Assembly: GCF_002585305.1 (NCBI RefSeq)
Contig: NZ_NUNF01000002.1
Coordinates: 23,523-87,522 of the forward strand
Source of the DNA: Bacillus sp. AFS037270
GTDB lineage: Bacteria; Bacillota; Bacilli; Bacillales_B; DSM-18226
DNA: 64,000 nucleotides
Direction: 5' to 3'
Within the stretch, counting starts at the first letter, position 1, and each line of letters opens with the position of its first letter. Positions 20,074 to 40,867 of this stretch are shown in pieces. The notes under the pieces were generated by a model, which was not told the origin of the DNA, searched no databases, and saw only the letters and a list, made by a program, of their open reading frames with translations. Made by a program: the position numbers and the translations under genes.

Positions 20074-20196
20074 TATGATTTCCTCCCAGGTCAGCATTTA
20101 TATAAACTTACGGTATAGCCAGAGAACAACAGGACAAGATTTTTCTTGTCCCATCTTGTTCACTTCCTCTAGCTCAAAGAAGAGACTTACTCCCTT

Positions 20197-20990: not shown

Positions 20991-22799
20991 CTATCTTGTG
21001 ATGCCGTACTTTTTCATCTTTTTAATTACGGTGGTATGGGAGACTCCAAGAGCCTGTCCTACCTTCCGAATGGAACCATATCGACTGAGTGATTCAATGA
21101 TTAAATCACGTTCTAATACATTAAAGGCGTTATAGTTATCGGATTCATTTATTTCTGTCATTTGAGGATTGGAAGCAGCTATTGCAACCTTCGAGTTTCC
21201 CTTTGGTATTGCTGGATGGTACACTGTCCTTGCCAACGGGCCTTCCAATGTCATAACATCCTCAGGGAGATGATGCAGTAGTATGGTAGGTTCAAATATC
21301 GTAACTACCAAACGCTCAATTAGATTAGACAACTGACGAACATTACCCGGCCATGAATAATTTTTTAGCGCATGGATGACTTGCGAGTCAATCATTTTTT
21401 GGATTCCATGTTTTTGATTGTAGCGATTTAAAAAGTACTGAATCATCGCTGGAATGTCCTCATGTCTTTCCCGCAATGGAGGAATATGAATTGGCACCAC
21501 ATATAACCGGTAATATAAATCCTCCCGAAATAATCCCATTTGAATTCTTTCTTGCAAATTCCGATGTGTTGCAGCAATAATACGGCAATTTACCTGAATC
21601 GGCTCAACCCCGCCTACCCTAGTAAACTCTTGTTCTTGGAGGACACGGAGAACTTTCACTTGAAGGGAAGATGACATTTCTCCGATTTCATCTAAAAAAA
21701 TCACTCCTCCTTCGGCAGCTTCAAACAGTCCTTTTTTTCCCGATCTGCTAGCACCTGTGAAAGCCCCTGCCTCATATCCGAACAACTCTGATTCGAGCAA
21801 ATCCGCAGGAAGAGCACCGCAATTGATTTTTACAAATGTCCCCTTCGAACGCCGGCTATTCTTATGAATAAAATTTGCGAGAACTTCTTTTCCAACTCCA
21901 GACTCTCCCAAAATCAAAACTGTGGAATCAAAATCGGCTACCCTTCCTGCTAAATCAAACACACTTACCATTTTCGGAGAGACGGCAATCACTTCGTCGG
22001 AAAGGACTTGCTTACGAAGCTTCAATATTTCTAATTGATACTCCTGGCTTCGTTTTTGCACAAAATTCAATTCTTCCCTCAGCCTGGCAAGTTCTGTCAT
22101 ATCTCGGACGGTCGCAACAGCACCTTGCATTTTTCCAAATTCATCAATAATGGGTACAGCACTTACAATATGTTCTTGACCGGTTGGATATCGCTGCAGT
22201 CCAATTACTTCTCGTTTTTCCTGTAACGCTTTCCATGTAATCGAAGGTTCCTGAAAAACCCCTTGGCTAAACAGTTCAGTCAAATGCCGGCCGATAAAAC
22301 GGTTTTCTAAAATGCCGGAAAAACGGGACATGGCTGGGTTCACCCTTGTCACCACGCCAAGCGAATCTGTAATTAAAATTCCATCATACGCAGAATCTAT
22401 AACGGCATCAAGATGCTTTCGCTGCTCATATACTTCCTTATATTTATCCCAAATGACTCTTTTTTGTTCGACTATCTTACCTGTCTCTGCTATGCCCAAA
22501 AATTGATTTTCTTTATCTACCACGCCAACTAGACTAAACTTGACAGGCAGTTTTATATCTATTATCTTAGTATCCTTGTAGAAGAAGGGGGCATCTTGAA
22601 CCCATATTCCCATTTCTGTCCCTGAAGGAAATGAATTTGAAAACAATTGAAATACACCGGACCAGCATCCTTGATCAATGACTGGTATTTCCTCAATGGA
22701 TAACGCTTTCATTTTCACTACAATTTGGTCGTATTCATTCTGAAGCATGTTCGACTCAACCATAAATGCAGGTTTTTGTGTTATATCTGAGAGAAGCAT
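20991..22799 (-). CDS. Sigma-54-dependent transcriptional activator (enhancer-binding protein) with PAS domain
   Basis: Activator of RNA polymerase carrying sigma-54. Domain order: N-terminal region of about 115 residues that resembles a degenerate CBS pair (EEIPVIDQG..GVF and FSLVGVVDKENQFLGI), PAS domain (about 128-240), AAA+ domain (about 270-500) with Walker A GESGVGKE at 298-305 and the sigma-54-contacting GAFTGA at 345-350, then a C-terminal Fis-like helix-turn-helix ending VSHTTVIKKMKKYGI. The start is MLLSDITQ, behind GGAGGGGG. It lies inside the operon served by the sigma-54 promoter at 26677-26694, and two more near-identical promoters nearby make it the likely regulator of the whole cluster. 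The ligand, sensed by PAS or the N-terminal domain, is unknown. Confidence 0.93.
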   Translation of the reverse strand: MLLSDITQKPAFMVESNMLQNEYDQIVVKMKALSIEEIPVIDQGCWSGVFQLFSNSFPSGTEMGIWVQDAPFFYKDTKIIDIKLPVKFSLVGVVDKENQFLGIAETGKIVEQKRVIWDKYKEVYEQRKHLDAVIDSAYDGILITDSLGVVTRVNPAMSRFSGILENRFIGRHLTELFSQGVFQEPSITWKALQEKREVIGLQRYPTGQEHIVSAVPIIDEFGKMQGAVATVRDMTELARLREELNFVQKRSQEYQLEILKLRKQVLSDEVIAVSPKMVSVFDLAGRVADFDSTVLILGESGVGKEVLANFIHKNSRRSKGTFVKINCGALPADLLESELFGYEAGAFTGASRSGKKGLFEAAEGGVIFLDEIGEMSSSLQVKVLRVLQEQEFTRVGGVEPIQVNCRIIAATHRNLQERIQMGLFREDLYYRLYVVPIHIPPLRERHEDIPAMIQYFLNRYNQKHGIQKMIDSQVIHALKNYSWPGNVRQLSNLIERLVVTIFEPTILLHHLPEDVMTLEGPLARTVYHPAIPKGNSKVAIAASNPQMTEINESDNYNAFNVLERDLIIESLSRYGSIRKVGQALGVSHTTVIKKMKKYGITR

Positions 22800-22893
22800 T
22801 GTTTCCCCCTCCATTTACCAAAATAAGCGGTTTATTTAAAAATTCACACTTATTTTATTTATACCTTAAAACACAGATGCTGGAAACTATTTA

Positions 22894-23718
22894 TTAAACC
22901 ATTGATAATTTAGGCGTTTTTATTGTTTCATTTAAACTACCAGAACGGTAACCTTGCAAATCAATGGTGATATACATATATCCAATACTCTTCAGTTTGC
23001 TGACAATCATTTCGTTAAAACCTGCCAATTTCTGGATATCTTGCGGTACAACTTCGATACGTGCTAATTTTTCATGCTGTCGCACCCTAACTTGACGGAA
23101 GCCGAGGTCCATTAGGAATTGTTCCGCCTTATCTATCATCGTTAACTTCTCTTGCGTAATCTTCTCACCATATGGAATCCTAGAAGAAAGACAGGCAAAA
23201 GAAGGCTTATCCCAAGTACGTAAATTCATTTGATAGGATAAGGCACGAATGTCCGCTTTCGTTAACTCCACATCCTGCAGCGGAGCACGAACCCCTTTTT
23301 CCTTTGCAGCCTTAAACCCTGGGCGATAGTCACTCAAATCATCAGCAATGGCTCCAAAAATAACTTGATCAAACCCACGTTCTTGGGCAACCGGAATCAA
23401 ATTGGTGAAAAGCTCCTGTTTGCAAAAATAACAACGATTGATTGGATTTTCTGCATATCCTGGAATATTCAATTCGCTTGTGTGAATAACCAAATGTTCG
23501 CAGCCAATTTCTTTCGCTAAACTCATCGCTTCTTTCAGCTCGCGCTCAGGATAAGTCTCAGCATCAGATGTTACTGCAAGGACATTTTTTGCTCCTAAAG
23601 CTTCCACTGCCGCCTTAAGCAAAAAAGTACTGTCAACGCCACCAGAAAAAGCGACGGCAACGCGGTTAAACCCTTTAAGACTCTCTAGTAACTTTTCATA
23701 TTTTAATTGATGTGACAT
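22894..23718 (-). CDS. larE: Nickel-pincer cofactor sulfur-insertion protein LarE (three-cysteine type)
   Basis: ATP-dependent sulfur transferase that converts the two carboxylates of the LarB product to thiocarboxylates after adenylylation. The PP-loop SGGVDS is at 25-30. Three cysteines stand out: Cys96 and Cys99 in RCYFCK and Cys176 in FACLSSR. The last aligns with the sacrificial Cys176 of the L. plantarum enzyme, but the extra CxxC fits the LarE subgroup that binds a [4Fe-4S] cluster and can use external sulfide. The start has GGGAG 9 nt upstream. It is in the same operon as larB and larC. Confidence 0.93.
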   Translation of the reverse strand: MSHQLKYEKLLESLKGFNRVAVAFSGGVDSTFLLKAAVEALGAKNVLAVTSDAETYPERELKEAMSLAKEIGCEHLVIHTSELNIPGYAENPINRCYFCKQELFTNLIPVAQERGFDQVIFGAIADDLSDYRPGFKAAKEKGVRAPLQDVELTKADIRALSYQMNLRTWDKPSFACLSSRIPYGEKITQEKLTMIDKAEQFLMDLGFRQVRVRQHEKLARIEVVPQDIQKLAGFNEMIVSKLKSIGYMYITIDLQGYRSGSLNETIKTPKLSMV

Positions 23719-23838: not shown

Positions 23839-24624
23839 TTACCTTTCCTTAAAACCAACTTGCACGCTGCCAACACCGCCGAAATGGGCTGTATAAACAT
23901 CTCCCGGCTTCGCCTCATATGCTTTTGTAAAAGAGCCTGAGAGAACGATATCTCCCGCTTTTAATCCTTCACCAAATGCAGCCAGCTTGTTACACAACCA
24001 TGCCACGGCTGCCGCCGGATGACCGAGCACCGCTGCGCCTGCAGCTGTATCGATGACTTCACCGTTTTGCTCCAATACCAGCCCAATCGTCCGTAGATCC
24101 AAGTCACTCACTCGACTTCCATAGCTCCCCAATACCAATGCCCCGTATGAAGCATTATCTGCTACCGTATCTTGAATCTTAATCTCCCAATTTCTGACGC
24201 GGCTATCAATAATTTCAAAAGCGGGCACGATATAATCCGTTGCCCGGATCACATCATGGAAGTGTACCCCCGGTCCCATTAAATCGTGTTTCATCACGAA
24301 GGCCAATTCTGCTTCTACCTTTGGCTGCAGAAATTGCTGATAGTCTACAAAACTTCCTTCCGGTAAAAGGGTATCATCGAACAATGAACCAAAATCTGGT
24401 TCAGGAACGCCTAGAGCATTCTGCATAGCCTTTGAAGTTAAGCCAATCTTATGTCCAATCACACGACTTCCGGAATCGAGTTTCCAAGCCTGGACTTGCT
24501 TTTGAATAGCGTATGCATCTTCGAGCGTAAGATTAGGGTACATTTCTGTCAACGGCGCAATCGGCTCTTTATTTTTATCTGCTTCCCATAATTGTTTCAC
24601 TGCTTGTTCGATCATCAGACTCAT
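23839..24624 (-). CDS. 2-keto-4-pentenoate hydratase family protein (MhpD/DmpE-like)
   Basis: Member of the 2-oxopent-4-enoate hydratase/4-oxalocrotonate decarboxylase family within the FAH-like fold. The 261-aa protein carries IGHKIGLTSKAMQ, the metal-ligand-type motif QPKVEAELAFVM, VPAFEIIDSR and a C-terminal KPGDVYTAHFGGVGSVQVGF. Such enzymes act in the lower meta-cleavage pathways or on related 2-oxo-enoic acids. No ring-cleavage dioxygenase is in the window, so the usual aromatic route is not complete here. It lies between larE and the CinA/MoaB-like gene, so its substrate may belong to the pathway served by the NPN enzyme. The start has GGGAG 7 nt upstream. Confidence 0.82.
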   Translation of the reverse strand: MSLMIEQAVKQLWEADKNKEPIAPLTEMYPNLTLEDAYAIQKQVQAWKLDSGSRVIGHKIGLTSKAMQNALGVPEPDFGSLFDDTLLPEGSFVDYQQFLQPKVEAELAFVMKHDLMGPGVHFHDVIRATDYIVPAFEIIDSRVRNWEIKIQDTVADNASYGALVLGSYGSRVSDLDLRTIGLVLEQNGEVIDTAAGAAVLGHPAAAVAWLCNKLAAFGEGLKAGDIVLSGSFTKAYEAKPGDVYTAHFGGVGSVQVGFKER

Positions 24625-24665: not shown

Positions 24666-25586
24666 TTAATTTGTATGATTTCCATGATGATGTGCATGAC
24701 CGTGAGTACCCACTGTTCTCATCCACCGCTCCCGAAGAAGATCGGCCAACTGTTCTCCAAGGATTTCCGGTTCGGGCTGCTTTTCGATACTCTCCACAAG
24801 CACATCTGCACAAAGCCGCACTTCTTCATTCGGTCCGGGAAGTGTAACCACATAGCTTAATCCTTCTTTAGCGACTCCAATCCGAATCCCATCCTTTACG
24901 TGCCTTCCATGTCCGCGAGTAAATTTTGCAATATATGGTGTTGCAGCATCGGGGCAAACCTTTAGCAAAGCTTCAACCGAACAATCTTTATCTTCGGCGC
25001 CAACCCCGCCGGTGGTAATAATCAAGCCAAATCCCTGTTCGAGGGCCTGTCTTAATGCCCCTGCAATCTCGTCAATATCGTCCTCTAACGGCCGATGAGA
25101 TTGCACCTTACACCCTGCTTCAGTAAACCTGTTCACAAGGTAAGGCGTATTGGTATCTTCTATCATGCCCCTTCCAACTTCAAATCCAGTAGGGAATACC
25201 TTCACACGGCGGCGAATCCGGTTTTGAATCTCGTTACCCATCGCTGCACTCTGCTCAACCACCTTTTTCCCTTCTATTGGAGATAATGCGATCATCCCCA
25301 ATACTCCTTCGGAATGAATGTCCGGTTCCGGACCAAAATTCACACCTGGAAGCGAACCTACTGCTTTTAACAATTCTTCTTTCTTTCCTACAAACTGATC
25401 ATCATTTATGGTCTGAACGAGTAAATCCAATGCGATATGATCCTCGCGAACATCGATAACAAATACCCGGTCCCTTGGGAGCTTTAGCACCTCAGCCACT
25501 GTATTGGAAATATCCGATAAGTCACAATCACTTAGATATACATCGGTTAAACGGAGTTCTGTTTTATTTAAAAGACTATATTCCAC
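24666..25586 (-). CDS. CinA/MoaB-like nucleotide or molybdopterin-binding domain protein with His-rich tail
   Basis: The C-terminal two-thirds match the MoaB/MogA/CinA N-terminal fold: FEVGRGMIEDTNTPYL, a Dxx(D/E) stretch (PLEDDIDEIAGALRQAL) and LIITTGGVGAEDKD. About 130 residues at the N-terminus are of unclear type. The protein ends in a His-rich tail (GTHGHAHHHGNHTN). The start is a GTG with GGAGG 9 nt upstream. CinA-type proteins act on pyridine nucleotides and MoaB-type on molybdopterin; in this operon a role with the NaAD-derived NPN cofactor or its precursors is plausible but unproven. No molybdenum enzyme is seen nearby, which argues against a pure Mo-cofactor role. Confidence 0.75.
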   Translation of the reverse strand: MEYSLLNKTELRLTDVYLSDCDLSDISNTVAEVLKLPRDRVFVIDVREDHIALDLLVQTINDDQFVGKKEELLKAVGSLPGVNFGPEPDIHSEGVLGMIALSPIEGKKVVEQSAAMGNEIQNRIRRRVKVFPTGFEVGRGMIEDTNTPYLVNRFTEAGCKVQSHRPLEDDIDEIAGALRQALEQGFGLIITTGGVGAEDKDCSVEALLKVCPDAATPYIAKFTRGHGRHVKDGIRIGVAKEGLSYVVTLPGPNEEVRLCADVLVESIEKQPEPEILGEQLADLLRERWMRTVGTHGHAHHHGNHTN

Positions 25587-25631: not shown

Positions 25632-26471
25632 TTATTCGGACAATTTAACCTCTAGACGCATATCGAGTAAGGGAGCGTTTAGAATCGAAGCACCTACATC
25701 GACCAAATCAACCGGAACATCACGAAGCAAAAGCAGTGTCTCTTCTGTTACGCTGCCCGCAAAAGCTACCTTTACCCGATGGCGGGCATTAAGCTGATCC
25801 AAGATTTGCAGAACAATTTTAAGATCGTTCAACGATCCTGTATCCACCATAAGGACATTCGCTCTTCCATGAACCGCGGCCTCTGTCTCCTCAGCGATAG
25901 ATTGCAATTCCCCACGGATTTGAATCACGGTCTTATGGTCAGGAAACTGTGCAGCCGCTTGAAGTGCTTGGCCGACTCCTCCAAACATCGAAACATAATT
26001 TTTATCGATATAGACAAACGGACCTTCAACCATTCGCATCCCAATCCCCCCTGCCGCCAGTGCAGCGTGTAGACCAGGCTTGGATTCCTGCGGGAGTTTC
26101 TTCCATCCCCCGCACACCACCTTCAAATTGCTTCCTGCAATAATCTGCAGTTGTCGTGCCCGAGTGGCATAGCCGGACGGAACCATCATCGACCCAAGCA
26201 CCCGGTCTTCAGCTATAGCAACACTTTTCGGCGTACCTCGAAAGGTTAAGATGACATCCCCCGGCTTTACTGCCGCGCCATCTTCTAAACAAGTTAATAG
26301 TTCAAGGCCAAGTTCATATACAAACGCAACAGCACACATGCTATTTGCCAATATCCCATAGTTCGTAGCTACCACTTGTGCTGTAAATAGGCGTTCTTGA
26401 ATGGGTATAAACAATGTATCACGCAAATCATATACAGCTGCTTCTTTTTTGTGCTGAGTTATTTCCAACAT
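25632..26471 (-). CDS. NadC-like (quinolinate phosphoribosyltransferase family) protein, divergent
   Basis: About 280 aa with the NadC layout: GILANSMCAVAFVYELG, VKPGDVILTFRG, a helix plus SGYATRAR, then KPGLHAALAAGGIGMR, NVLMVDTGS, VAFAGSVTEETL and VDVGASILNAPLLDMRL. Two normally conserved NadC motifs are altered: TRKTxPG becomes GGWKKLPQ..KPG, and the GGGxxHR region becomes AGGIGMRMVEG, so its substrate may not be quinolinate. NadC makes NaMN, the precursor of NaAD, which LarB consumes. It is the first gene of the sigma-54 lar operon. I start at MLEITQHK; AGGAGG is about 12 nt upstream, slightly long, and other upstream Met codons overlap that site. Confidence 0.75.
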   Translation of the reverse strand: MLEITQHKKEAAVYDLRDTLFIPIQERLFTAQVVATNYGILANSMCAVAFVYELGLELLTCLEDGAAVKPGDVILTFRGTPKSVAIAEDRVLGSMMVPSGYATRARQLQIIAGSNLKVVCGGWKKLPQESKPGLHAALAAGGIGMRMVEGPFVYIDKNYVSMFGGVGQALQAAAQFPDHKTVIQIRGELQSIAEETEAAVHGRANVLMVDTGSLNDLKIVLQILDQLNARHRVKVAFAGSVTEETLLLLRDVPVDLVDVGASILNAPLLDMRLEVKLSE

Positions 26472-26487
26472 GTTTCTGATCATCCTC

Positions 26488-26637
26488 CTACTCACATAGA
26501 TCTCTGTGTGCGATATCGATGTACTTTTTCAACTGGAATTTGTTGGGATTTCCACTGCCATCACCCATTTCAGCAGCTCGGTTCAATATCCTTTTTTGTG
26601 ACGGTATTACAGCCGATCATGATTGAAGCGCATTCAT
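26488..26637 (-). other. Possible small ORF in the sigma-54 leader (doubtful)
   Basis: Between the sigma-54 promoter and the NadC-like gene, an ATG at 26568 opens a 26-codon frame whose TAG overlaps the next gene's AGGAGG. The same frame continues upstream through a single TGA (26617-26619) to an ATG at 26637, giving about 49 codons. Neither start has a strong ribosome binding site. It could be a leader peptide, a decayed gene or chance. Confidence 0.15.
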
Positions 26638-26922: not shown

Positions 26923-28122
26923 ATGACAGGTGCATATATTGAATGTTTCGAAGGGGTGGACAACGAAAGGTTATTAGGTGCTTGGTTCGATCTGGGATTA
27001 CCCGAAAATGAATGGCGTTCGTATATGGGTAAAATTGGTGTACATGAAAATAATCTTGCGGTTCAGCGAATGAAAGTGAAAGGAATTGCGGCAACGTCTG
27101 CCTGTATTTATCCATTTAAACTGCATGGTTCTATGAATCTATCCGATATGGAAAAAATAATCGATAACTGGGAGCTGCCACAAATAGTAAAAGAAAAAAG
27201 CAAACTGTTTTTTCAACACTGGGGTGCGGCCGAAGCAGTTGTGCGTGATACGAACCCTAGCCTCATACCTTTTGATCAAGAGAATTCTGCAGAAATACTC
27301 TGTTACACGGTTGGAAACATCTTGGCCTGGCATTTGATAGGAGAACCGGAATGTTATGTTTCCACCATTAATCTGGGAAGCGGGTGGAACCAATATGACG
27401 AGGGGTGGAAAGTATTTCCTGAACCAGCAACCGTTCAATTATTACTAGGATACCCTACCTTGACTTCCGGAGCGGCTGGAGGAATAACCAGCACCGCAGC
27501 TGCTGCTCTCATTCGAACCTTAGCTGTACCTGCTCCACAATCGGCATTTATTACGGAAAAAGTAGGATATGGAGCCGGACCAGAATATGCTTCCACGAAC
27601 ATTCTGCGGATTCAGCTTGGAGAGTGGTGCACCTCTTCTCAAACGGTGAAATCTTCCAATCCCCAAAAAAGAACGATTGTGATTGAAACCAACATTGACG
27701 ATATGAACCCTGAATTAGCAGGCTATCTCATCCAGCGCCTTTTATCCATTGGGGCAATGGATGCGTACATCATTCCAATCATCATGAAAAAGGGACGCCC
27801 TGGATTGCAGCTTCGGGTAGCCTGTAAGACTGAACGGCAAAAAGAAATCCAAGAGGAAATAGTACGTCAGACAACCACCATCGGGATGCGTCATTATACA
27901 GTCAGTGGTTGGGCCGTTCCCCATAAAATTGTCCAGGTAAAAACTTCTTTTGGTGAATTGCCGGTCAAGATTGCTTTCTTGGACGGAGAAATTGTAAATG
28001 TGGCTCCGGAATATGAAGCCTGTCGACAAGTAGCTGAATCCCTCGGAATTTCAGGAAAACGAGTCTATCAGACCGTTCTAGGCGAGGCTCTGGCACAATA
28101 TCCATTCACATCTAAACAATAA
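26923..28122 (+). CDS. Divergent LarC-like protein lacking the N-terminal LarC motifs
   Basis: A 399-aa homologue of LarC (old name DUF111). The C-terminal LarC2-type half is well kept: IVIETNIDDMNPELAGYLIQ, IIMKKGRPGLQLRVA, and an EYEACRQVAESLGI ending like LarC. The N-terminal half is recognisable but lacks the key LarC1 motifs: SGISGDM becomes EGVDNER, HFHEVGAMD is replaced by PFDQENSAE, TPTGA becomes TSTAA, and there is no His-rich loop. It is the only plus-strand gene of the cluster, with its own sigma-A-like promoter and a strong AAGGAGAGGG site. It may be a nickel-insertion helper, a regulator or a protein with a new nucleotide-dependent role; its function is unknown. Confidence 0.82.
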   Translation: MTGAYIECFEGVDNERLLGAWFDLGLPENEWRSYMGKIGVHENNLAVQRMKVKGIAATSACIYPFKLHGSMNLSDMEKIIDNWELPQIVKEKSKLFFQHWGAAEAVVRDTNPSLIPFDQENSAEILCYTVGNILAWHLIGEPECYVSTINLGSGWNQYDEGWKVFPEPATVQLLLGYPTLTSGAAGGITSTAAAALIRTLAVPAPQSAFITEKVGYGAGPEYASTNILRIQLGEWCTSSQTVKSSNPQKRTIVIETNIDDMNPELAGYLIQRLLSIGAMDAYIIPIIMKKGRPGLQLRVACKTERQKEIQEEIVRQTTTIGMRHYTVSGWAVPHKIVQVKTSFGELPVKIAFLDGEIVNVAPEYEACRQVAESLGISGKRVYQTVLGEALAQYPFTSKQ

Positions 28123-28225: not shown

Positions 28226-28936
28226 TTACTGCATCCAAATTTTAAATAAGCCCTCTGTTACTCCTAAGTTATACATATAGTAAAGTCCAAATGCGGTACT
28301 GATTAGCCCGGTAATTCTTGTCAGTTTTAAATTTACACTTTCCTTTTTCGCACTAAGGACAAACGGAATGCCAATAATCGTTGTAAATCCAAGCATACCA
28401 ATGGTCGTTCCCAGGCCAAAGATAAGAATATATACGGCCCCTTCCCAAACACTTGTAACTGAACTCATGGTTAACAGCACCATTGCCGCACTTCCGCCAA
28501 GCCCATGCACTAAGCCAATCAGCAAAGACTTACGATAGGAAATCTTTTTATGCTCATGCAAGTGTGGAGCACCTTCAGCGCGATGATGAAAATGATCATG
28601 AACAACCTCATTATGCTGATGTTCATGATGATGGACTTTTTTAAAGGAAAGAATACTTGCTATGCCTAAATAAACTAGCATAATCCCAACTAAAAACTCA
28701 AAGGACATCGCCCACTCTTCCGGTATGTTCCCCTTCATAATAATCAAGATGATTCCAACTAAAAATAGTGTTGCAGTATGCCCGATTCCCCAAAAAACCC
28801 CTGCCAGAGAAGAGCGCCATAATTTTTTACTTTGACTAGCAATTGTAGAAACCGCAATGACATGATCAGGTTCAATTGCATGTTTGATCCCAAGAATAAA
28901 TCCTAAAAATAGTATAGATAGTAAGCTGCCTTCCAT
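28226..28936 (-). CDS. NicO/UreH-like nickel (cobalt) transporter
   Basis: A 236-aa membrane protein with about six predicted segments. Near the N-terminus it has the metal-transport motif KHAIEPDHVIAV (HAxxPDH). A cytosolic loop in the middle is rich in His (around HHHEHQH and HDHFHH), and a second motif GLVHGLGGSAAM follows. These features mark the UreH/NicO-type high-affinity Ni2+/Co2+ permeases. The true start is MEGSLLS, behind AGGAGTGGG; the longer frame has no good site. It follows UbiD by about 120 bp and is probably co-transcribed from the sigma-54 promoter at 30637-30654, so nickel supply is induced with the pathway. Confidence 0.87.
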   Translation of the reverse strand: MEGSLLSILFLGFILGIKHAIEPDHVIAVSTIASQSKKLWRSSLAGVFWGIGHTATLFLVGIILIIMKGNIPEEWAMSFEFLVGIMLVYLGIASILSFKKVHHHEHQHNEVVHDHFHHRAEGAPHLHEHKKISYRKSLLIGLVHGLGGSAAMVLLTMSSVTSVWEGAVYILIFGLGTTIGMLGFTTIIGIPFVLSAKKESVNLKLTRITGLISTAFGLYYMYNLGVTEGLFKIWMQ

Positions 28937-29057
28937 TTTTCCCACTCCTGTCTTAATAATATGTCTGGCCCGGCAGCAGTCTTCAATCATTTAAAGGGTG
29001 CTCTCTGCTGCGTAGTTGATTGCTAGTTAGAACATCACTAGTTTTCTATTCTTTTCA

Positions 29058-30440
29058 CTATTCTAGATGTTCAGCTTTAATAGAGGCCTTAAAATCAACA
29101 TAATCCTCTGTTTTCACTTCATTGTATCCCGGAATATATACCGGTAAATAACGCATCGGTTCACTATTCAACGGAACGGTACAATCCAATCCCATCTTTG
29201 ATCCTACACCATCCTCTGTAGAAGGGTCCAGTTTCGATCCCTGGGACTCGTGGATGAGTACCAAATCTTTTTGGGCTTGAAAGCGGGTGGCAATCACCCA
29301 CTCCACTTCCTCCATGTTAAAAATATCAATTTCTTCATCGACGACAACCACATGTTTAATGTCGAAACTATTCGCAAAGGCGGCGATAATAGCATTTTTC
29401 GCCTCTCCCTGGGTTCTTTTCTTAATCGACACTATTGCATGATAGCGGCAGGTTCCTCCTGGGCTCATATGGACGGCCTTAACGCCTGGAACCGTTTGAC
29501 GGATGCTTTGAAACAAGCTTGCCTCCCGAGGAATCCCACCCAATAAAAAGTGCTCGTAGCATGCAGGTACAATCGTATAGAAGATCGGGTTATTTCGGTG
29601 CGTGACCGCACTAATTTGAACAACTTCCTTATTACTGCGTGGTCCATAATATTTGGGGAATTCTCCAAAAGGTCCTTCCGGCTCGCGAACATGGGGCAAA
29701 ATCCTGCCCTCTAGGACAATTTCAGCAGATGCAGGTACATCAATATCAACCGTCTCGCAGCGAACCACTTCCAATGGTTCTCCGCGCAGGCTGCCGGCAA
29801 TCTCTAATTCATCCACACCATATGGCGTGCTTGCTTGCGAAGCTAGTAATGTAACCGGGTCTACTCCGATAGCAATGGCACATTCCAATGCCCTTCCCGC
29901 CTCCTCTGCCTCTTTAAACAGATGAAACGTGTGGCGTGGAAGGAGTAAGACGCCAAGCTTGTCCTTTCCTGAAACCTGTAGACGATGAATGGCGACGTTC
30001 TGCTTGCGGGTTTCAGGATCCCGAACAATAAACAGTCCAGCTGTAATATAGTTGCCTGAATCTTTCTCGTGATGAACGGGAATCGGAAGCAGCTTCATTA
30101 AGTCGATATCTCCGAGAATGATATTTTCTTTAACCGGAGCCTCCGCATCATTCACCAATCGACAGGGTGTCGGCGAAGCCACCGCTTCATTAAACTTATG
30201 GATAATTCCGTATTGATCAGTTTCGAGTGCTTCAGCAAAATCTTCCCGGCTGGAACAAATGCCAGAAACAACTGGTATCGAATAATCTTCTACATTTGTA
30301 AAATAAGTGGCCTTTTTTCCATCCAATTTTTTGCTTACTGCGGCAATCTCATACTGTAAACTGACGTTTCGATTAATAACAGCCAAACGGCCTTCGGTCT
30401 GAAGGTGCTTCAACCATGTCCTGAATGTTTTAGCTCGCAT
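29058..30440 (-). CDS. UbiD-family prenylated-FMN-dependent decarboxylase
   Basis: Reversible non-oxidative decarboxylase of (hetero)aromatic or alpha,beta-unsaturated carboxylic acids that uses prenylated FMN made by UbiX (gene at 36581-37156). The 460-aa length is typical. The prFMN/metal site regions are visible: VAIHRLQVSGKDKLGV with the catalytic Arg, and REPEGPFGEFPKYYG with the two Glu residues of the E-R-E triad. It starts at ATG behind AGGGGG and is the first gene after a sigma-54 promoter. The substrate cannot be inferred from the family alone; the pathway context suggests an organic acid processed by the NPN enzyme and two dehydrogenases. Confidence 0.9.
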   Translation of the reverse strand: MRAKTFRTWLKHLQTEGRLAVINRNVSLQYEIAAVSKKLDGKKATYFTNVEDYSIPVVSGICSSREDFAEALETDQYGIIHKFNEAVASPTPCRLVNDAEAPVKENIILGDIDLMKLLPIPVHHEKDSGNYITAGLFIVRDPETRKQNVAIHRLQVSGKDKLGVLLLPRHTFHLFKEAEEAGRALECAIAIGVDPVTLLASQASTPYGVDELEIAGSLRGEPLEVVRCETVDIDVPASAEIVLEGRILPHVREPEGPFGEFPKYYGPRSNKEVVQISAVTHRNNPIFYTIVPACYEHFLLGGIPREASLFQSIRQTVPGVKAVHMSPGGTCRYHAIVSIKKRTQGEAKNAIIAAFANSFDIKHVVVVDEEIDIFNMEEVEWVIATRFQAQKDLVLIHESQGSKLDPSTEDGVGSKMGLDCTVPLNSEPMRYLPVYIPGYNEVKTEDYVDFKASIKAEHLE

Positions 30441-33874: not shown

Positions 33875-35053
33875 TCACAATATAGCTTTTAATAAGGCTA
33901 AAACTTCATCGTCAGAAGGCTGACGCGGATTCATTTTCATCATCCCGCTCTTGAATGAATCCTTCGCAATATCAGCAAGCTTCTCCTCCGTTACCCCCAC
34001 ATCTCTTAGTCTTGTTGGAAGCCCAATTGACTCAACAAGTCTTGCAACAGCACCACCTGCTTGAGACGCTAACGCCTCCTGGTTCTCACCCTTCACTCCC
34101 ATCTGTTCAGCAATTCTTGCTGCTTTTTCCGGAAGAGCAGCCGCATTGAATTCAATTACACTTGGAAGTAATAGTCCAATTGCAACCCCATGTGGAACAT
34201 GACAGTGACCGGACAGGGCGCTGCCAATCGCATGGGCTAACCCTAAAAATCCGTTATTAAAAGCCATCCCTGCTAATAAGCTGCCATGTGATAGGCCAAC
34301 GCGTGCTTCCACTTCATGCCCTCGTTCGACCGCACTGCGAAGATGTCCATTCACCATATGGATAGCCTCCATCGCAAGTGCATCCGATACAGGGCTGGAT
34401 AGAATTGAAAAGTATGTTTCAATTCCGTGAGCCAAAGCATCAATTCCTGATGCAGCGGTCATTTTTACTGGTAAACTCATTGTCAAGGCAGGGTCGACAA
34501 TCGCAATAGTTGGCGCCATATATGGACTGGTCACCGTTACCTTCACATTATTTTGCCAATCCGAATAAACGCCGAACATGGTTACCTCACTCCCGGTACC
34601 AGATGTGGTTGGGATGGCGATAAGCGGAAGTGTTGGCGCAACAGGGACCCGATTTACCCCGGCATAATCACCGATGCTGCCCCCATTTGCGGAAACTACC
34701 CGGATCCCCTTCGCGGTATCAATCGGACTTCCGCCGCCGACTGCGACAATACAGTCATACACCTTTTGCCGAAAAATTTCATAACCATTGTTGATGGTCT
34801 CAAGACTCGGGTCGGGTTCTACCCCTGTAAAGATATCGAATAAAATCTCTGATTTTTCCAAAGATCCAGTTAATCCTGCAAGCAATCCAGCTGATTCGAC
34901 CCCTTTATCCGTTACTAAAAACACCTGTTTAACTCCAAGCTTTTGAAGCCGTTGTCCCAGCTCAACAGCCTTTCCATACCCGAATTCAATTAGAGTAGGA
35001 AGATTAAACGAGAATTTAAAATCGGTTGCCTTTACTAAATGTCCTGTTGTCAC
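33875..35053 (-). CDS. Iron-containing (type III) alcohol dehydrogenase
   Basis: NAD(P)-dependent dehydrogenase of the Fe-ADH family, 392 aa. The nucleotide-binding GGGSPIDTAKG and metal-ligand motifs DALAHGIE, GLAHAIGSALSGHCHVPHG are all present, so it looks active. It starts at a GTG behind AGGAGGGG. Together with the adjacent aldehyde dehydrogenase it would oxidise an alcohol or hydroxy acid through an aldehyde or keto form, or run in reverse. It is transcribed with ubiX, ALDH and the symporter. Confidence 0.9.
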   Translation of the reverse strand: MTTGHLVKATDFKFSFNLPTLIEFGYGKAVELGQRLQKLGVKQVFLVTDKGVESAGLLAGLTGSLEKSEILFDIFTGVEPDPSLETINNGYEIFRQKVYDCIVAVGGGSPIDTAKGIRVVSANGGSIGDYAGVNRVPVAPTLPLIAIPTTSGTGSEVTMFGVYSDWQNNVKVTVTSPYMAPTIAIVDPALTMSLPVKMTAASGIDALAHGIETYFSILSSPVSDALAMEAIHMVNGHLRSAVERGHEVEARVGLSHGSLLAGMAFNNGFLGLAHAIGSALSGHCHVPHGVAIGLLLPSVIEFNAAALPEKAARIAEQMGVKGENQEALASQAGGAVARLVESIGLPTRLRDVGVTEEKLADIAKDSFKSGMMKMNPRQPSDDEVLALLKAIL

Positions 35054-35083: not shown

Positions 35084-36550
35084 TTAATCGATTTCAAAAT
35101 GAATGTGTTTTGTCTCACAATATTCATTTAATCCATCAATACCGCGGGTACGTCCTTGACCACTTTGCTTATAACCGCCAAATTCAGCTTCTGGGAAGTT
35201 CCTGTTGTACGTGTTAATCCATACGGTACCTGCTTTAATTCCTCTCGACATTTTCATCGCTCGGTTTAAATTGGTTGTCCAGACACCTGCAGCAAGTCCA
35301 AAATCGGAATCATTGGCCATGGTGAGTGCTTCTTCATCATTAGAGAAAGACTGAATAGCTAGAACCGGTCCAAAGATTTCCTCCTGCACGACTCTAGAGG
35401 ATGACGACAGTTCATCGATAATAGTTGGTGCTATAAAAAAGCCTTTATCATATTCCCCACCTGTTAAGCGGTAACCGCCTGTAACGATTTTTCCTTCCTT
35501 ACGTCCCATTTCGATATAGTCTGTCACGATATCCAACTGACTTTGCGAAATAACTGGCCCCATATCCGTTGTTTCAAGAATTCCATTCCCGACCTTCAGA
35601 TTCTCCGCATATTGTTTTAAGCCGGCAATCACTTCATGTTTAATAGATTCATGGACTAACAATCGAGAACCGGCCATACAAATCTGTCCGGCGGTGTTAA
35701 AGATCGAGCGGCCTATCAGAGGGATTGCCTTCCTTAAATTTGCATCTGCAAATACAACATTGGGCGATTTTCCACCTAGTTCTAATGCCAGCTTCTTAAT
35801 ATTGCTTGTTGCCATTTCCATGATCGTCTTACCTGTGGAAGTATCTCCAGTGAAGCTGATCATATCGATCTTCTTGCTTGTTCCCATCGCTGCACCTATT
35901 GATCTTCCAGGTCCAGTCACAATGCTAACTATCCCTTTGGTGAAATCAGGAACTTGGTCAATGAGTTTGAAAATTTCCACTGAAATAGCCGGTGTGAGAC
36001 TTGCCGGTTTAACAATTACACCGTTACCAGCTGCCAAAGCAGGAGCTAATTCCCGAACCATCAAAAGGGCCGGCCAGTTCCATGGGCTGATAATTCCAAC
36101 TACGCCAATCGGCTCTTTTGCAATAACCCCAAAATTTTGCGATTCAAGCTGAATCGAGCGCCCAAATACGGTCCGGGATGCACCGGCAAAGTATTTTAAG
36201 GTATCAATACAACCCGCAATCTCGCCTCGGGATTCATTGATGGTTTTCCCTTGCTCGATCGTTAAAACTCTTGCAAGATGCTCCTTGTTCTCTTCCATTT
36301 TTTGAGCTAAACCTAACAAAGCGTTGTAGCGGCGCTTCGGATTATAGCCCCAGTCACTAGTGTTAAACGCATGAAAAACGGTATCAATTGCATATTCCAC
36401 ATCCTGAACCGTTGATTTTTGCGCGTAGCCCACCACTTCACCAGTAGCCGGGTTTTTTGATTCCAATAATTCTTTTGAAGAAGATTCCGTCCATTCCCCA
36501 TTGATGAGATTATAATATGTAGTCTGTTTTTGATCGATTAATGTAGACAT
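35084..36550 (-). CDS. NAD(P)-dependent aldehyde dehydrogenase
   Basis: A complete ALDH-superfamily enzyme, about 488 aa. Catalytic residues are visible: the Glu in LELGGKSPNVVF and the Cys in FNTAGQICMAGSR, with NPWNWPA-type and SFTGDTSTGK nucleotide-binding stretches and a C-terminal EFGGYKQSGQGRTRG. The start is MSTLIDQK, behind AGAGGAG; the longer frame has no site. It lies 31 bp after ubiX and 30 bp before the alcohol dehydrogenase gene. It oxidises an aldehyde of unknown identity to the acid, perhaps the product of the UbiD decarboxylase or of the alcohol dehydrogenase. Confidence 0.9.
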   Translation of the reverse strand: MSTLIDQKQTTYYNLINGEWTESSSKELLESKNPATGEVVGYAQKSTVQDVEYAIDTVFHAFNTSDWGYNPKRRYNALLGLAQKMEENKEHLARVLTIEQGKTINESRGEIAGCIDTLKYFAGASRTVFGRSIQLESQNFGVIAKEPIGVVGIISPWNWPALLMVRELAPALAAGNGVIVKPASLTPAISVEIFKLIDQVPDFTKGIVSIVTGPGRSIGAAMGTSKKIDMISFTGDTSTGKTIMEMATSNIKKLALELGGKSPNVVFADANLRKAIPLIGRSIFNTAGQICMAGSRLLVHESIKHEVIAGLKQYAENLKVGNGILETTDMGPVISQSQLDIVTDYIEMGRKEGKIVTGGYRLTGGEYDKGFFIAPTIIDELSSSSRVVQEEIFGPVLAIQSFSNDEEALTMANDSDFGLAAGVWTTNLNRAMKMSRGIKAGTVWINTYNRNFPEAEFGGYKQSGQGRTRGIDGLNEYCETKHIHFEID

Positions 36551-36580
36551 ATCCCTACTCCTCTCATGTCCATTCATTTA

Positions 36581-37156
36581 TCATTTTTCTATCGGATGTT
36601 CCATACCTGACCATCGCGTAAATAAATTAGCTTCAAGATCAAATTGATCAAGTGCTTTCTGAACACTTTGATTTACAATATCATCAATTGTTTTAGGTAA
36701 ATGATAGAAAGACGGAACCGGCGGAAGAATCACTCCTCCCATTTGGGTAACGTTCATCATATGTTGGATATGCCCAAGATGTAAGGGCGTCTCACGTAGA
36801 AGAAGCACCAGCTTTCTGCGTTCCTTTAACTGAACATCTGCCGCCCTGGTCAGCAATTCATTATTAAAACTATTAGCGATACCGGCCAGTGTCTTGATTG
36901 AGCATGGTGCGACTATCATTCCTTTTACTTTAAAAGAACCACTTGAAATAGCGGCCCCCAAATCACGATTTTCATATACCTCTGAAGCCATTCTATAAAC
37001 ATCCTGAAAACGATAATCTGTTTCGTACTCGATCGTTTTCCTGGCTGTTTCACTGATTACAAGGTGAACTTCCACCCCCAGCCGGTACAATGCTTCCACG
37101 GTGCGAACGCCATATATAGCACCGCTCGCACCGGAAATACCCACGACCATTTTCAT
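36581..37156 (-). CDS. ubiX: UbiX-type flavin prenyltransferase
   Basis: Makes prenylated FMN from FMN and dimethylallyl (pyro)phosphate for UbiD-family enzymes. The 191-aa protein opens with VVGISGASGAIYG, followed by VAPCSIKTLAGIA and RKLVLLLRETPLHLGH, all typical. AGGAGG precedes the ATG by 9 nt. Its partner UbiD is about 6 kb away at 29058-30440 in a separate sigma-54 operon, an unusual separation in which co-regulation would be through the shared activator. Confidence 0.93.
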   Translation of the reverse strand: MKMVVGISGASGAIYGVRTVEALYRLGVEVHLVISETARKTIEYETDYRFQDVYRMASEVYENRDLGAAISSGSFKVKGMIVAPCSIKTLAGIANSFNNELLTRAADVQLKERRKLVLLLRETPLHLGHIQHMMNVTQMGGVILPPVPSFYHLPKTIDDIVNQSVQKALDQFDLEANLFTRWSGMEHPIEK

Positions 37157-37185: not shown

Positions 37186-38547
37186 TTAGAAGTTTCCTTT
37201 TGTCTCTGGAATAATGATACTTCCAATTATGAAAATCAAATAGATTCCAACAAGGAAGCAAGCCAGCGCAACAGGAATGCCACCAGTTACACTACTAACC
37301 AAGGAAACGAATGTTGGCATGATTCCGCCAAGTGCAAATCCTGTGTTCCAAGAGATACCAGTACCAGTGGAACGGATAGCTGTTGGGAAGCGCTCATTCA
37401 GAAAGATCATAACAGGTGCGTATCCGGCATTGCCTAGTCCTGAAAACACAATCGCATAAAACGCAATAGCTGAGATACTTGTAGCATGTCCCAATCCCAA
37501 TCCCAGCACCGGAAGCGCAATAACATTGATAACCCCGATAATTAAGAAGGTTTTCTTTCTTCCAATTTGATCGCTTAAATATCCCAATGCGATCGGTGTA
37601 ATAATGGCCACAACACTAGCTCCCATTAGAATAAACGATGCTGTTGTAGGATTAATTTTGTTAACCATCTTCAAGAGTGTAGGAAGGTATCCGGATGTTA
37701 AATAGTAACCGGCACCACCACCAAAAACAATCATCAAGTTGACAAAAAATACGGAGCGATATTTTGTAAAAATAATCTTAACAGGCGATTTTTCAAGCTC
37801 TGGCTGTATTTGTACAGTCTTCTTGTTTTCCTTTTCTTTCTTCAATTGCTTCCATAGTGGAGATTCTTCTAGTGATTTAAATACAAAGATCCCCATGACC
37901 GAACTTAAAATTCCCGAGAAGAACATGACTCTCCATCCCCAGCCGTTAAATGCCTCGCCTGGAAAAAGCTGTGTAACAATAAGATAGACAATCGATGCAA
38001 ATAATGCTCCCAAACCTGCACCGCCGCCGCCGATCAGACCTGACATCGTTCCGCGCCACTTAGCTGGAACAGATTCGGTACCGATTGTATGCGTAGATGC
38101 AACAACGCCACCGACAAAAACCCCTTGAACTATACGGAGGACAAGGAAAATGATTGAAGCGGCAATACCAATTTGATCAACAGTAGGCAGAAGACCGAAT
38201 GAAGCAGAAGCCAGTCCGACACCAATAAATGCTACAGTCATTGCACCCTTTCTTCCGTGCTTATCAGCATAAGCACCAAAAATGGCGGAACCAAGCGGAC
38301 GGACAATTAATGTTACCGCAAAAGATGCGTAGACAGCTGCCAGTGAAAGCACCGGGACATGGGAAGGGAAAAACACTTGACCAACAACAGGAGCGACATA
38401 AAGAAGAATAAATAAATCAAAAAGATCGAGTGACCATCCTAATACAGATGCAATAGAGGCCTTTATCATTTGACTATTACTAACACCTGTTGTTGGACTT
38501 GAATTTGGATTACTTGCTAAATTTGAAGAACTAGACAAATTAGACAT
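37186..38547 (-). CDS. MFS transporter, metabolite:H+ symporter type
   Basis: A 453-aa permease with about 12 membrane segments and MFS signatures: YADKHGRKGAM between helices 2 and 3, RIVQGVFVGG in helix 4 and SDQIGRKKTF in the second half. Overall it resembles the carboxylate (aromatic or sialic acid) H+ symporters. A long Ser/Asn-rich N-terminal tail precedes helix 1. It has a strong GGAGG and leads the ubiX-ALDH-ADH-symporter run. It may take up the acid substrate of the pathway. Confidence 0.82.
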   Translation of the reverse strand: MSNLSSSSNLASNPNSSPTTGVSNSQMIKASIASVLGWSLDLFDLFILLYVAPVVGQVFFPSHVPVLSLAAVYASFAVTLIVRPLGSAIFGAYADKHGRKGAMTVAFIGVGLASASFGLLPTVDQIGIAASIIFLVLRIVQGVFVGGVVASTHTIGTESVPAKWRGTMSGLIGGGGAGLGALFASIVYLIVTQLFPGEAFNGWGWRVMFFSGILSSVMGIFVFKSLEESPLWKQLKKEKENKKTVQIQPELEKSPVKIIFTKYRSVFFVNLMIVFGGGAGYYLTSGYLPTLLKMVNKINPTTASFILMGASVVAIITPIALGYLSDQIGRKKTFLIIGVINVIALPVLGLGLGHATSISAIAFYAIVFSGLGNAGYAPVMIFLNERFPTAIRSTGTGISWNTGFALGGIMPTFVSLVSSVTGGIPVALACFLVGIYLIFIIGSIIIPETKGNF

Positions 38548-38729: not shown

Positions 38730-40157
38730 CTATGCGTTGACCAAAATGCCTCTTTGCTTTAGCCATTTTGGCATTAGGATGTTATCGACTTTGTCGCTGA
38801 CACTTGGTGCGACTTCCATCAGATGATCTGCCAAGGAGCGGCTCACATTGATCCCGCCAACGGCACCGTCAAATACGATGACTTTGTCTGTTCCTGTTGT
38901 TTTATAGGCAAAGTTCATGGAATCATGTAAGTTATCCGCTACCATCGCGTATTTCATATACTCGATGTTTTGCGAATCATGTTCAAACAGGTCTGCTTGT
39001 TCTTTTCCAACTACCAGCGTTGGCACCTGCTGAGAGAAGAATGCACTCGGATATCCGATCCACGCGTAGTTATGAACGACCATCTTAATAGCTGGATTGA
39101 CTGGTTTTACATCTGAAACGAGCGGTTTTCCGTCTCTGCCGTACATCGCTTCCGCATACCATGTATACGGTGCGAGTCTCTCATCGAGATCAAACAAATC
39201 GCAGTTGGCCCCAACAAAGTTACAGTAAATAACCCCTGCCGAGAATACATATGGCACCGGACATGGGAAGTCCAAACCAACGATACACTCATCAATTTCG
39301 CCTAACAGCTGGAACACTTTACCGTAGTGACGTAAACCACTAAGGGTAATGACATCGTTAATCTTGTACAGGTCATTATCTGCCTCGACGCTGATGACAC
39401 CACTTGGAGACATGTTGAGGAACACAGCTCCAACGAACTTGCTTTGTACAAACTCTGATTCAAAGATAGCCCGAGCAGTGAAGTTAGCTCCGCGCGGTCC
39501 TAGGTTTTGATGGTAAGTCGACCGAGTTTCAATCCGCGCATAAGACATCCCAAACGGCTTCACCGCACGGTCTACCTGGCGGTGGAAGTGAACCTCACGC
39601 ACGTCACTGTTATGAACGTGAATAATCCAAGTAGCATCATACGTCCATTTCAACCCGTAAAGCGTCCCGATTTCCGTTTCGATCGGAATGCCCTCATCAA
39701 TTGGGGCCATTCCTCTTGCTCTATCAAAATGCTTATTCAACTCAAAACGTTTAATATATTCTTCCGTCTCTCTAAAGCGCAGACCCACGCCTGCACGTAA
39801 ACGAACTTCCCTGGCGCCTGTACGCTGCTTAACTACGTCATAGACTGTTTTTAATAATTCGGCATACGGTTCTCCGCCCAGAAGCGTAAATCCATGGTGA
39901 GAAGCCAAGATATTCACCGTATGATTCGGCTGGATCATCGACAGATCAACTTTTTCGAGTGCTGCCTCAGCGTGGCGGCGGATTGAGTAGATTCCTTCTG
40001 GACTTGGATAAATGACATCCGGAACATCCGGGAACAATTCGTTTAGCATCAGTGAGGTCATCTCTGGAAGCTCAGCAAAACGGTTTTTCACCAATGATGG
40101 GTCGATACCATATCGTGATGGCCGTGGATTAAGTGGTTTAATTGGTGCTGGGTACAT
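38730..40157 (-). CDS. Divergent LarA-like, probably nickel-pincer-cofactor-dependent enzyme
   Basis: A 475-aa protein I assign to the LarA superfamily by fold pattern, not overall identity. Residues 80-140 read like the LarA N-domain (strand ending LASHHGF, then VRLRAGVGLRFRETEEYIKRF). His190, Lys200 and His216 reproduce the spacing 10 and 16 of LarA His174, Lys184 (cofactor anchor) and His200 (nickel ligand). At the place of LarA catalytic His108 stands Leu126, and at substrate Arg75 stands Phe90, so chemistry and substrate should differ from lactate racemase. The start is MYPAPIKP, with GGGGAGG upstream; its ATG overlaps the ferredoxin stop (TAATG). Ni-cofactor genes and sigma-54 control nearby support the call. 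Confidence 0.72.
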   Translation of the reverse strand: MYPAPIKPLNPRPSRYGIDPSLVKNRFAELPEMTSLMLNELFPDVPDVIYPSPEGIYSIRRHAEAALEKVDLSMIQPNHTVNILASHHGFTLLGGEPYAELLKTVYDVVKQRTGAREVRLRAGVGLRFRETEEYIKRFELNKHFDRARGMAPIDEGIPIETEIGTLYGLKWTYDATWIIHVHNSDVREVHFHRQVDRAVKPFGMSYARIETRSTYHQNLGPRGANFTARAIFESEFVQSKFVGAVFLNMSPSGVISVEADNDLYKINDVITLSGLRHYGKVFQLLGEIDECIVGLDFPCPVPYVFSAGVIYCNFVGANCDLFDLDERLAPYTWYAEAMYGRDGKPLVSDVKPVNPAIKMVVHNYAWIGYPSAFFSQQVPTLVVGKEQADLFEHDSQNIEYMKYAMVADNLHDSMNFAYKTTGTDKVIVFDGAVGGINVSRSLADHLMEVAPSVSDKVDNILMPKWLKQRGILVNA

Positions 40158-40822
40158 TACTTTTCCTCCCCTTTCACTTGAAGTTGACAAGTTGTACTTG
40201 ATAATGGAGCGTTACGCAACTTCTCCAGGAATTCAATATCCTCATCAAAATGGAAACCGCGTTTCGAATATTTCTCTTTTACTTCGTCCGGAATACTCCA
40301 AATAGTCGGTGTTTCTCCATACCACTGGTAACGGCCTTTAGGAGCTTCGAGTTCAATACCTGCTGATTTCAGCATGCGAATGGCCGGCTGGAGGCATTCT
40401 ACCGTACAACCTGTACGCAGGCCGGTTCTTTGTGAGATTTTATCCGGTGTATCCGCTCCTTGAAGAATGGCCGCAGCTACCTCGTCGGCACGTGTACTAG
40501 TACAATAGCAAACAATTTGCTCCGGGTGTAAATGGGCATCATAACAAATCTTTTGTACTTCTTCATAGTTTGATAGGCTAATATCCACGCCGATCATACG
40601 AGACTCTTCCAGATTGGTCATCTCAATCGCATCGAACGGACAGCGCTGTTCACACGCCGTACAGCCCGTACAATTTTCCTCCTCGACCACAGCCAGCTTT
40701 TTATGCTTGGTTCCTGGCACAGGTTCCATTGTAATTGCTAAAGTCGGACAAACTTGAGAACAAATTTTACAGCCGGTACATTTGTCATTCAGAATTACCG
40801 CCAACGAATTAATTAAGCGCAT
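40157..40822 (-). CDS. Ferredoxin-like protein with two [4Fe-4S] clusters and a BFD-like [2Fe-2S] domain
   Basis: The N-terminal bacterial ferredoxin domain has two complete CxxCxxCxxxC(P) motifs (Cys15/18/21/25 and Cys51/54/57/61). A BFD-type domain follows with Cys105/Cys107 and Cys139/Cys143, the pattern of a [2Fe-2S] site. About 65 C-terminal residues have no recognised domain. An upstream GTG overlaps the ribosome binding site, so I start at the ATG giving MRLINSLAV, 8 nt after AAAGGAG. It is the first gene after a sigma-54 promoter and is translationally coupled to the LarA-like gene, suggesting that the two proteins work together, for example by passing electrons. Confidence 0.88.
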   Translation of the reverse strand: MRLINSLAVILNDKCTGCKICSQVCPTLAITMEPVPGTKHKKLAVVEEENCTGCTACEQRCPFDAIEMTNLEESRMIGVDISLSNYEEVQKICYDAHLHPEQIVCYCTSTRADEVAAAILQGADTPDKISQRTGLRTGCTVECLQPAIRMLKSAGIELEAPKGRYQWYGETPTIWSIPDEVKEKYSKRGFHFDEDIEFLEKLRNAPLSSTTCQLQVKGEEK

Positions 40823-40867
40823 ACATTTCACTCCTTTGGGAATTACATCACAATGTCACTTATATAC

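Follow-up and report, generated by a model that had tools for sequence, protein, structure and literature searches.

A LarA-fold protein family with a dedicated ferredoxin gene, a candidate nickel-pincer reductase for ring opening of 2-furoate

Here we describe a protein family represented by a gene at positions 38730..40157 (minus strand) of a 64-kb stretch of Bacillus sp. AFS037270 DNA, the whole of which is referred to below as the window. The gene is a 475-codon open reading frame (ORF) that runs from an ATG at 40157 to its end at 38730, with a stretch resembling a ribosome-binding site (GGGGAGG) 5′ of its start. Its ATG overlaps by 1 nt the stop codon of the preceding gene (40157..40831, minus strand), which encodes a ferredoxin with two [4Fe-4S] motifs and a BFD-type [2Fe-2S] domain, as recognised by Pfam and by motif. 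Searches with the 475-residue protein returned no Pfam family at E<=0.1, Lar_N (PF09861) included, no meaningful NCBIfam family and, whether it was used singly or as a profile, no relevant relative among PDB sequences. The family is widespread in bacteria and has neither name nor annotation: at least 1335 homologues at E<=0.001 were found among 7997 candidates scored, and among the 120 matches listed, which share 67-91% identity with the protein, most are unnamed or called "hypothetical protein" and one has a name that begins "LarA-like N-terminal d". One database entry labels the homologue P0058 of Moorella thermoacetica Y72 "exonuclease VII, large subunit", most likely a misannotation.

A LarA two-domain fold is strongly supported by AlphaFold modelling. 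The 11 best structural matches in both of two models are entries named lactate racemase, malate racemase or LarA-like enzyme, which bears out the LarA-like fold claimed in a preliminary description of this DNA. Identity to LarA over the structural alignment is 13-14%, and model confidence (pLDDT) for residues 181-220 is 69-85 in the better of the two models. The same description had called this protein the only LarA candidate near the genes for the nickel-pincer nucleotide (NPN) cofactor, and indeed two LarA profiles run over the ORFs of the window detected no LarA, nor did they match 38730..40157 itself; a match at 30790-32136 in the LarA search is a lactate permease.

Residue conservation was read from an alignment of 191 rows (182 distinct sequences, the window protein included), with LarA numbering anchored through the alignment of a close LarA (L083) to 5huq. 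The spacing His190-x9-Lys200-x15-His216, previously noted as exactly that of LarA, occurs once in the protein, and all three residues are invariant in 191/191 rows, as are His87, His88, Phe90, His192 and Arg127. The motif arises in 1.9% of shuffles of the protein, and in 0.09% of permutations restricted to the labels of the 104 invariant columns. Loss of the catalytic His108 of LarA had also been proposed, and neither candidate position holds a His in any of the 182 distinct sequences: position 126 is Leu in 145 and Met in 37, and position 127 is Arg in all 182. We would revise the residue at this place, however, as setting GLRFRETEE of the family against GFHRPSTHEE of LarA by the G...T.E anchor (a register chosen by eye) puts Arg127 rather than Leu126 at His108. 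Matching the strand ASHHGF by eye to SDHTR of LarA places His87-His88 at Asp72-His73 and, as first suggested, the invariant Phe90 at Arg75. Arg75, then taken to bind substrate, is described in passages of PMC11770544 as binding the NPN phosphate, and its loss, if real, therefore touches cofactor binding.

The genes around the family were examined by scanning one genome per species, which gave 108 confirmed relatives and 80 retained loci, 33 of them with full flanks. Neighbours in the 33 full loci were counted by tblastn with score floors, which we preferred to ORF-predicted counts that miss genes masked by antisense frames. The ferredoxin gene lies directly upstream in 33/33 (61/74 by the ORF-based count), the commonest overlaps between the two ORFs being 1 base (18 loci) and 4 bases (9 loci). 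Among the ferredoxin ORFs, window included, two 4Fe-4S motifs are present in 67/68 and the BFD-type C-x-C...C-x(2-4)-C in 68/68. Almost as constant are a hydratase family (32/33), a gene resembling quinolinate phosphoribosyltransferase (QRPTase-like, 31/33), a MoCF-domain gene (31/33) and an IclR-type regulator (31/33), followed by aldolase and acetaldehyde dehydrogenase families (26/33), a BenE-type transporter (18/33), an M24-peptidase-like gene (15/33) and the cofactor genes LarC (14), LarB (13) and LarE (10). Searches confined to the locus surroundings did not find the QRPTase-like and MoCF genes near L015 and L076. Aldehyde:ferredoxin oxidoreductase occurs in 10/80 loci and pyruvate:ferredoxin oxidoreductase in 6/80.

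Hydratase, aldolase and dehydrogenase together correspond to a lower pathway for a C5 dienoate. The window hydratase (23839..24624, minus strand) is a 2-oxopent-4-enoate hydratase-like protein of the FAA_hydrolase family, with TIGR03220 as its best NCBIfam model (306.8 bits, cut-off 408.8) and hydratases and decarboxylases of the 2-oxopent-4-enoate pathway as its best PDB relatives. In the representative locus L001 both the aldolase (524 bits, cut-off 286) and the acetylating acetaldehyde dehydrogenase (449.7, cut-off 282) exceed their thresholds; an aldolase is present in all five close relatives' genomes tested, standing beside LarE in A. terranovensis. Regulation of the window operon may fall to a PAS/sigma-54-dependent activator (20991..22814, minus strand; Pfam).

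With the second His missing, a ferredoxin gene adjoining and a catabolic operon around it, the protein is probably not a simple racemase, as the preliminary description had foreseen on sequence grounds. An ordinary LarA-type racemase or epimerase of a 2-hydroxy acid would share the fold, with Arg127, His87 or His88 as the replacement for the second acid/base; the invariant His87-His88 could stand in for His108, and LarA homologues without one catalytic His are structurally known, according to passages of PMC12611868. We nevertheless consider such an enzyme very improbable here, since racemisation needs no ferredoxin and no 2-hydroxy-acid pathway was recognised in the conserved operon.

Dependence on NPN is suggested by the cofactor genes. 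LarB (20197..20949; NF033503), LarC (18673..20097; both LarC domains) and LarE (22894..23718; TIGR00268, 354.9 bits, cut-off 150), all on the minus strand of the window, exceed curated cut-offs. There is also a second, divergent LarC-like nickel-insertion gene on the opposite strand (26923..28122, plus strand; LarC2 domain over its cut-off, LarC1 under it at 84.2 against 90), beside a NicO-type nickel transporter-like gene (28226..28990, minus strand; Pfam). Galactose utilisation genes (GalT, epimerase and galactokinase by Pfam; 14828-18586, minus strand) adjoin the NPN genes and are apparently unrelated. When LarC, Lar_N and LarE were sought in the genomes that carry 50 of the 80 loci, LarC was found in 44/50 and LarE over its cut-off in 45/50. 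A second sample comprised 299 genomes taken evenly across the phylum to which Moorella belongs, in which the enzyme was counted at >100 bits (G179, at 18.6 bits, was dropped and a fragment in G092 kept). It is present in 20/299, and LarC was found in 19 of these 20 carriers versus 145 of the other 279 genomes. In Moorella thermoacetica (L020) and O. ruminantium (L057) both LarC and LarE are present and Lar_N gives no match, leaving the LarA-fold protein as the sole visible candidate for an NPN enzyme there.

It could be argued that the protein has the LarA fold and binds no NPN. The position of Arg75 appears to be lost, and neither LarC nor LarE was found in five of the 50 carrier genomes, namely three metagenome assemblies (L018, L040, L044), Oscillibacter sp. 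1-3 (L065) and a complete Breznakiella chromosome (L055). Lar_N proteins are present in all five as well, so that the missing genes tell no more against the LarA-fold enzyme than against those proteins, and may just as likely reflect salvage or incomplete assembly. Given in addition the enrichment of LarC among carriers and the presence of the anchor Lys, the nickel-ligand His and the third His in 182/182 distinct sequences, we judge a protein without NPN to be extremely improbable. The complete chromosome of Breznakiella homolactica (L055/G034) has four Lar_N matches and the LarA-fold enzyme with no LarC or LarE found, a pattern that suggests cofactor salvage or an unrecognised route.

The QRPTase-like protein (25632..26495, minus strand; Pfam and homology) and the MoCF-domain protein with a His-rich C-terminus (24666..25586, minus strand; Pfam) appear to be core partners of the enzyme. 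Within the 299 genomes the MoCF subfamily is found in all 20 carriers and, among other genomes, in G099 alone (Fisher 3e-30), and the QRPTase-like subfamily (at least 150 bits) in the same 20 carriers and G099; in G260 the match covers the first half of MoCF only. Contig C55 of G099 carries the QRPTase-like gene and a MoCF gene with in-frame stops, and no LarA-fold enzyme was detected in this genome; the locus may be truncated or in decay. Each of 24 carriers, chosen by the author from the 50, yielded a single full-length MoCF match, with a stop flagged in the aligned stretch of 2/24. The two are fused in one chain of 595-604 residues in three loci (L017:12899-14686, L032:3363-5159 and L043:1617-3431), which ties the two proteins together. 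At least three His residues lie within the last 25 residues of 34/55 MoCF proteins, versus 0/56 hydratases and 0/54 QRPTase-like proteins; His-rich tails are typical of nickel-handling proteins. The MoCF proteins keep a TTGGVGAExKD motif, which we take to resemble that of molybdopterin adenylyltransferases, and the QRPTase-like family, compared by eye with true QRPTases, differs around the quinolinate site. The pair may thus make or modify the cofactor, MoCF perhaps with a part in nickel handling; no other part of the model is as weak.

One link to furans comes from the UbiD decarboxylase of the window (29058..30440, minus strand). Its best PDB matches over query residues 5-448 are to HmfF (6h6v, 561 bits; 6h6x, 553 bits), the next structure scoring 217. 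Its five strongest relatives in the 299 genomes (G052, G226, G140, G235 and G180; 564-588 bits, then a gap to 477) all belong to the 20 carriers (hypergeometric 8e-7) and lie on the contig of the enzyme gene, 0.4 to 15.3 kb away; the cut was set at the score gap after the list was seen, and the alignments of G235 and G180 each contain one TGA. In carriers G098 and G137 a weaker UbiD (426 bits) lies at another place in the genome, and across the 80 loci UbiD ORFs scoring 446 to 824 bits against the window protein occur in nine. Grouped with UbiD in the window, all on the minus strand, are a UbiX-type flavin prenyltransferase (36581..37156; above two NCBIfam cut-offs), which would supply UbiD with prenylated flavin mononucleotide, an aldehyde dehydrogenase (35084..36577; no NCBIfam model shown reaches its cut-off) and an iron-containing alcohol dehydrogenase (33875..35053; likewise below every NCBIfam cut-off), which may oxidise furanic aldehydes and alcohols, and a metabolite/H+ symporter-like carrier of the major facilitator superfamily (37186..38547; Pfam, below NCBIfam cut-offs) that may take up the substrate. 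Elsewhere one TRAP transporter family occurs in four of the 80 loci and a MatC-type dicarboxylate carrier in three. The aerobic pathway runs from 2-furoate through furoyl-CoA to 2-oxoglutarate, as outlined in passages of PMC6604932. A furoyl-CoA synthetase or CoA ligase does not recur at our loci, a motif scan, as distinct from a profile search, finding AMP-binding-like motifs in ORFs of more than 380 residues in 3/80.

Taken together, we propose, with a probability of roughly 0.45, that 38730..40157 encodes a ferredoxin-fed, nickel-pincer-dependent reductase that opens 2-furoate to 2-hydroxypenta-2,4-dienoate. From the computed fold, conservation, linkage and homologies we infer a bound NPN, the flow of electrons, the substrate, the reaction and the role of the QRPTase-like and MoCF proteins. 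Lys200 would anchor the NPN that LarB, LarE and LarC make and that the QRPTase-like and MoCF proteins may modify, and His216 would be the ligand of the nickel. The ferredoxin of the neighbouring gene would give two electrons which, with a proton, would place on NPN the hydride that ordinary LarA takes from its own substrate. Transfer of this hydride to C5 of 2-furoate would leave a carboxylate-stabilised C4 carbanion that expels the ring oxygen to form the enolate of 2-hydroxypenta-2,4-dienoate, a ring opening for which His190 may suffice as the single acid/base. One-way NPN hydride chemistry, with an external donor at each turnover, would explain the missing second His and the ferredoxin gene together. 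The formulae balance exactly: 2-furoic acid (C5H4O3) plus 2 H gives C5H6O3, the formula of 2-hydroxypenta-2,4-dienoic acid, on which the hydratase acts. Homology supports conversion of the dienoate by hydratase, aldolase and acylating acetaldehyde dehydrogenase to pyruvate and acetyl-CoA, and this pyruvate could re-reduce ferredoxin. On the supply side, furanic alcohols and aldehydes and furan-2,5-dicarboxylate are likely turned into 2-furoate by the alcohol and aldehyde dehydrogenases and the HmfF-like UbiD/UbiX of the window. For this gene the preliminary description mentioned neither the coupling to ferredoxin nor the QRPTase/MoCF partners nor the furan context.

The direction of electron flow could be the reverse of that proposed, with NPN taking a hydride from a 2-hydroxy acid and passing electrons to ferredoxin. 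Hydride abstraction from 2-hydroxy acids is the normal half-reaction of LarA, according to passages of PMC12611868, and a ferredoxin gene stands directly next to that of the LarA-fold protein. No 2-hydroxy acid is needed on the way to the C5 dienoate, however, and furoate has to be reduced to reach that product, so that a dehydrogenase seems to us improbable. Much the same holds for a redox-neutral hydration or hydrolytic opening of furoate, in which the ferredoxin would serve another enzyme or just keep the cofactor active. Operon association cannot show electron flow, but hydration of furoate leads to C5H6O4 (the level of 2,5-dioxovalerate), outside the hydratase/aldolase route, and the ferredoxin gene overlaps the enzyme gene in the window besides its constant upstream position; this alternative, too, we rate as improbable.

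The lower pathway fixes the product only, and the same ferredoxin-fed reduction could act on another ring acid (e.g. pyrrole-2-carboxylate, or a pyridine or benzenoid acid) to give the same C5 dienoate. The BenE-type transporter gene is not specific to furans, the QRPTase-like, MoCF and M24/ectoine-hydrolase-like genes suit nitrogen chemistry, and a close HmfF is present in just five of the 20 carriers. Against this, HmfF is by a wide margin the closest solved relative of the window UbiD, the five closest relatives of which are all near the LarA-fold gene, and a nitrogen ring would require a deamination step for which no recurring gene was recognised at the loci. We therefore regard a different ring acid as unlikely, though the likeliest of the alternatives.

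Several observations weigh against reductive opening of 2-furoate. Foldseek TM-scores to LarA entries are just 0.40-0.52, and comparison with LarA by sequence-profile and profile-profile methods gave no significant relation, so that the profile check suggested at the outset lends no support. Alongside the five genomes in which neither LarC nor LarE was found, LarC was not found in A. terranovensis (L016), in which LarE is present, nor in G332. The aldolase and acetaldehyde dehydrogenase were not found in the 64-kb window, nor nearby in seven of the 33 full loci. No close HmfF relative was found in 15 of the 20 carriers of the 299-genome sample, which leaves the lower pathway as the sole tie to furans for most members. 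Furan chemistry itself has no use for the QRPTase-like, MoCF and M24-peptidase-like genes, which could indicate an N-heterocycle. Some carriers, such as Alicyclobacillus and Aneurinibacillus, are not strict anaerobes.

Individual loci depart from the common arrangement. Four loci (L044:13486-14535, L048, L069 and L077) have a member of a family (F27) close to the LarA-fold gene, and the one tested, that of L044, has a Lar_N domain. The Alicyclobacillus loci L003 and L004 combine LarA-like, QRPTase and MoCF genes with two LarC-like genes; L003 has no hydratase and has an ORF with an AMP-binding motif, possibly a variant route. A molybdenum-hydroxylase-type [2Fe-2S] subunit gene near the operon in L035, L037 and L074 (Fer2/Fer2_2 in L035) is perhaps another way from aldehyde to acid.

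The LarA-fold subfamily described here is real and unannotated, with a ferredoxin gene as its conserved neighbour and partners of a cofactor type. It is set apart from ordinary LarA because it lacks the Lar_N profile and the second His yet keeps the fold and the cofactor residues, and its chemistry may be new in kind. The NPN enzymes of known activity described in passages of PMC12611868 and PMC7583248 are racemases or epimerases. Literature searches, covering top-ranked results and open papers, returned none that joins a LarA-type enzyme to furan or ferredoxin and no known enzyme for oxygen-free opening of the furan ring. A 2018 review (PMC6604932, in passages) expected further furan pathways from anaerobes, the need for oxygen limiting the known route. 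We advance only tentatively, and with less confidence than the reaction itself, the wider suggestion that this would be the first nickel-pincer enzyme of net reduction, recharged by its own ferredoxin, carrying an NPN tailored by the QRPTase-like and MoCF proteins and opening furan without oxygen, CoA or ATP, and that it would provide the missing anaerobic furan ring-cleavage step of clostridia, acetogens, sulfate reducers and gut bacteria. If true, this would add a new kind of hydride chemistry to nickel enzymes and allow the carbon of furfural, 5-hydroxymethylfurfural and furan-2,5-dicarboxylic acid to be used without oxygen, with relevance to biomass conversion and bio-based plastics. Its partner protein and predicted substrate make the family a concrete case that can be tested, and with >1000 homologous protein clusters the conserved LarA-fold/ferredoxin/QRPTase/MoCF module merits solving even if the substrate differs.

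Comparison with LarA, the lactate racemase of L. plantarum (PDB 5huq, 6c1w, 8ezh), shows a common predicted fold and His-x9-Lys-x15-His spacing, together with LarC and LarE in most carrier genomes. In contrast to LarA, the family has no Lar_N Pfam match and no His at the His108 position, and it is accompanied by a ferredoxin gene and QRPTase/MoCF partners in a C5-dienoate catabolic operon. LarA homologues with a single catalytic His have been described from Blautia (9q3j) and Streptococcus (9q3k), in which His174 is replaced by Asn and for which passages of PMC12611868 suggest carbohydrate metabolism. They share with our family the LarA fold and the loss of one catalytic His, and their structural scores are tied with those of LarA. 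However, it is the equivalent of His108 that our family has lost, whereas that of His174 is kept (His190, and not Asn, in 182/182 distinct sequences), and the genes sit in a ring-acid-type catabolic operon with ferredoxin.

The pathway itself resembles two known systems. With HmfF/HmfG and the aerobic Hmf route, as presented in passages of PMC6604932 and PMC8988006, the window shares UbiD/UbiX likely giving 2-furoate, with genes for alcohol and aldehyde oxidation nearby; a furoyl-CoA synthetase-like gene does not recur at the loci, and the proposed reductive ring opening would replace oxidative metabolism of furoyl-CoA. With the lower pathway of meta-cleavage the LarA-fold loci have in common the families of 2-oxopent-4-enoate hydratase, 4-hydroxy-2-oxovalerate aldolase and acetaldehyde dehydrogenase. 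Where that pathway is fed by oxygen-dependent ring cleavage, we propose that the LarA-fold protein would act as the feeder, in hosts many of which belong to anaerobic groups.
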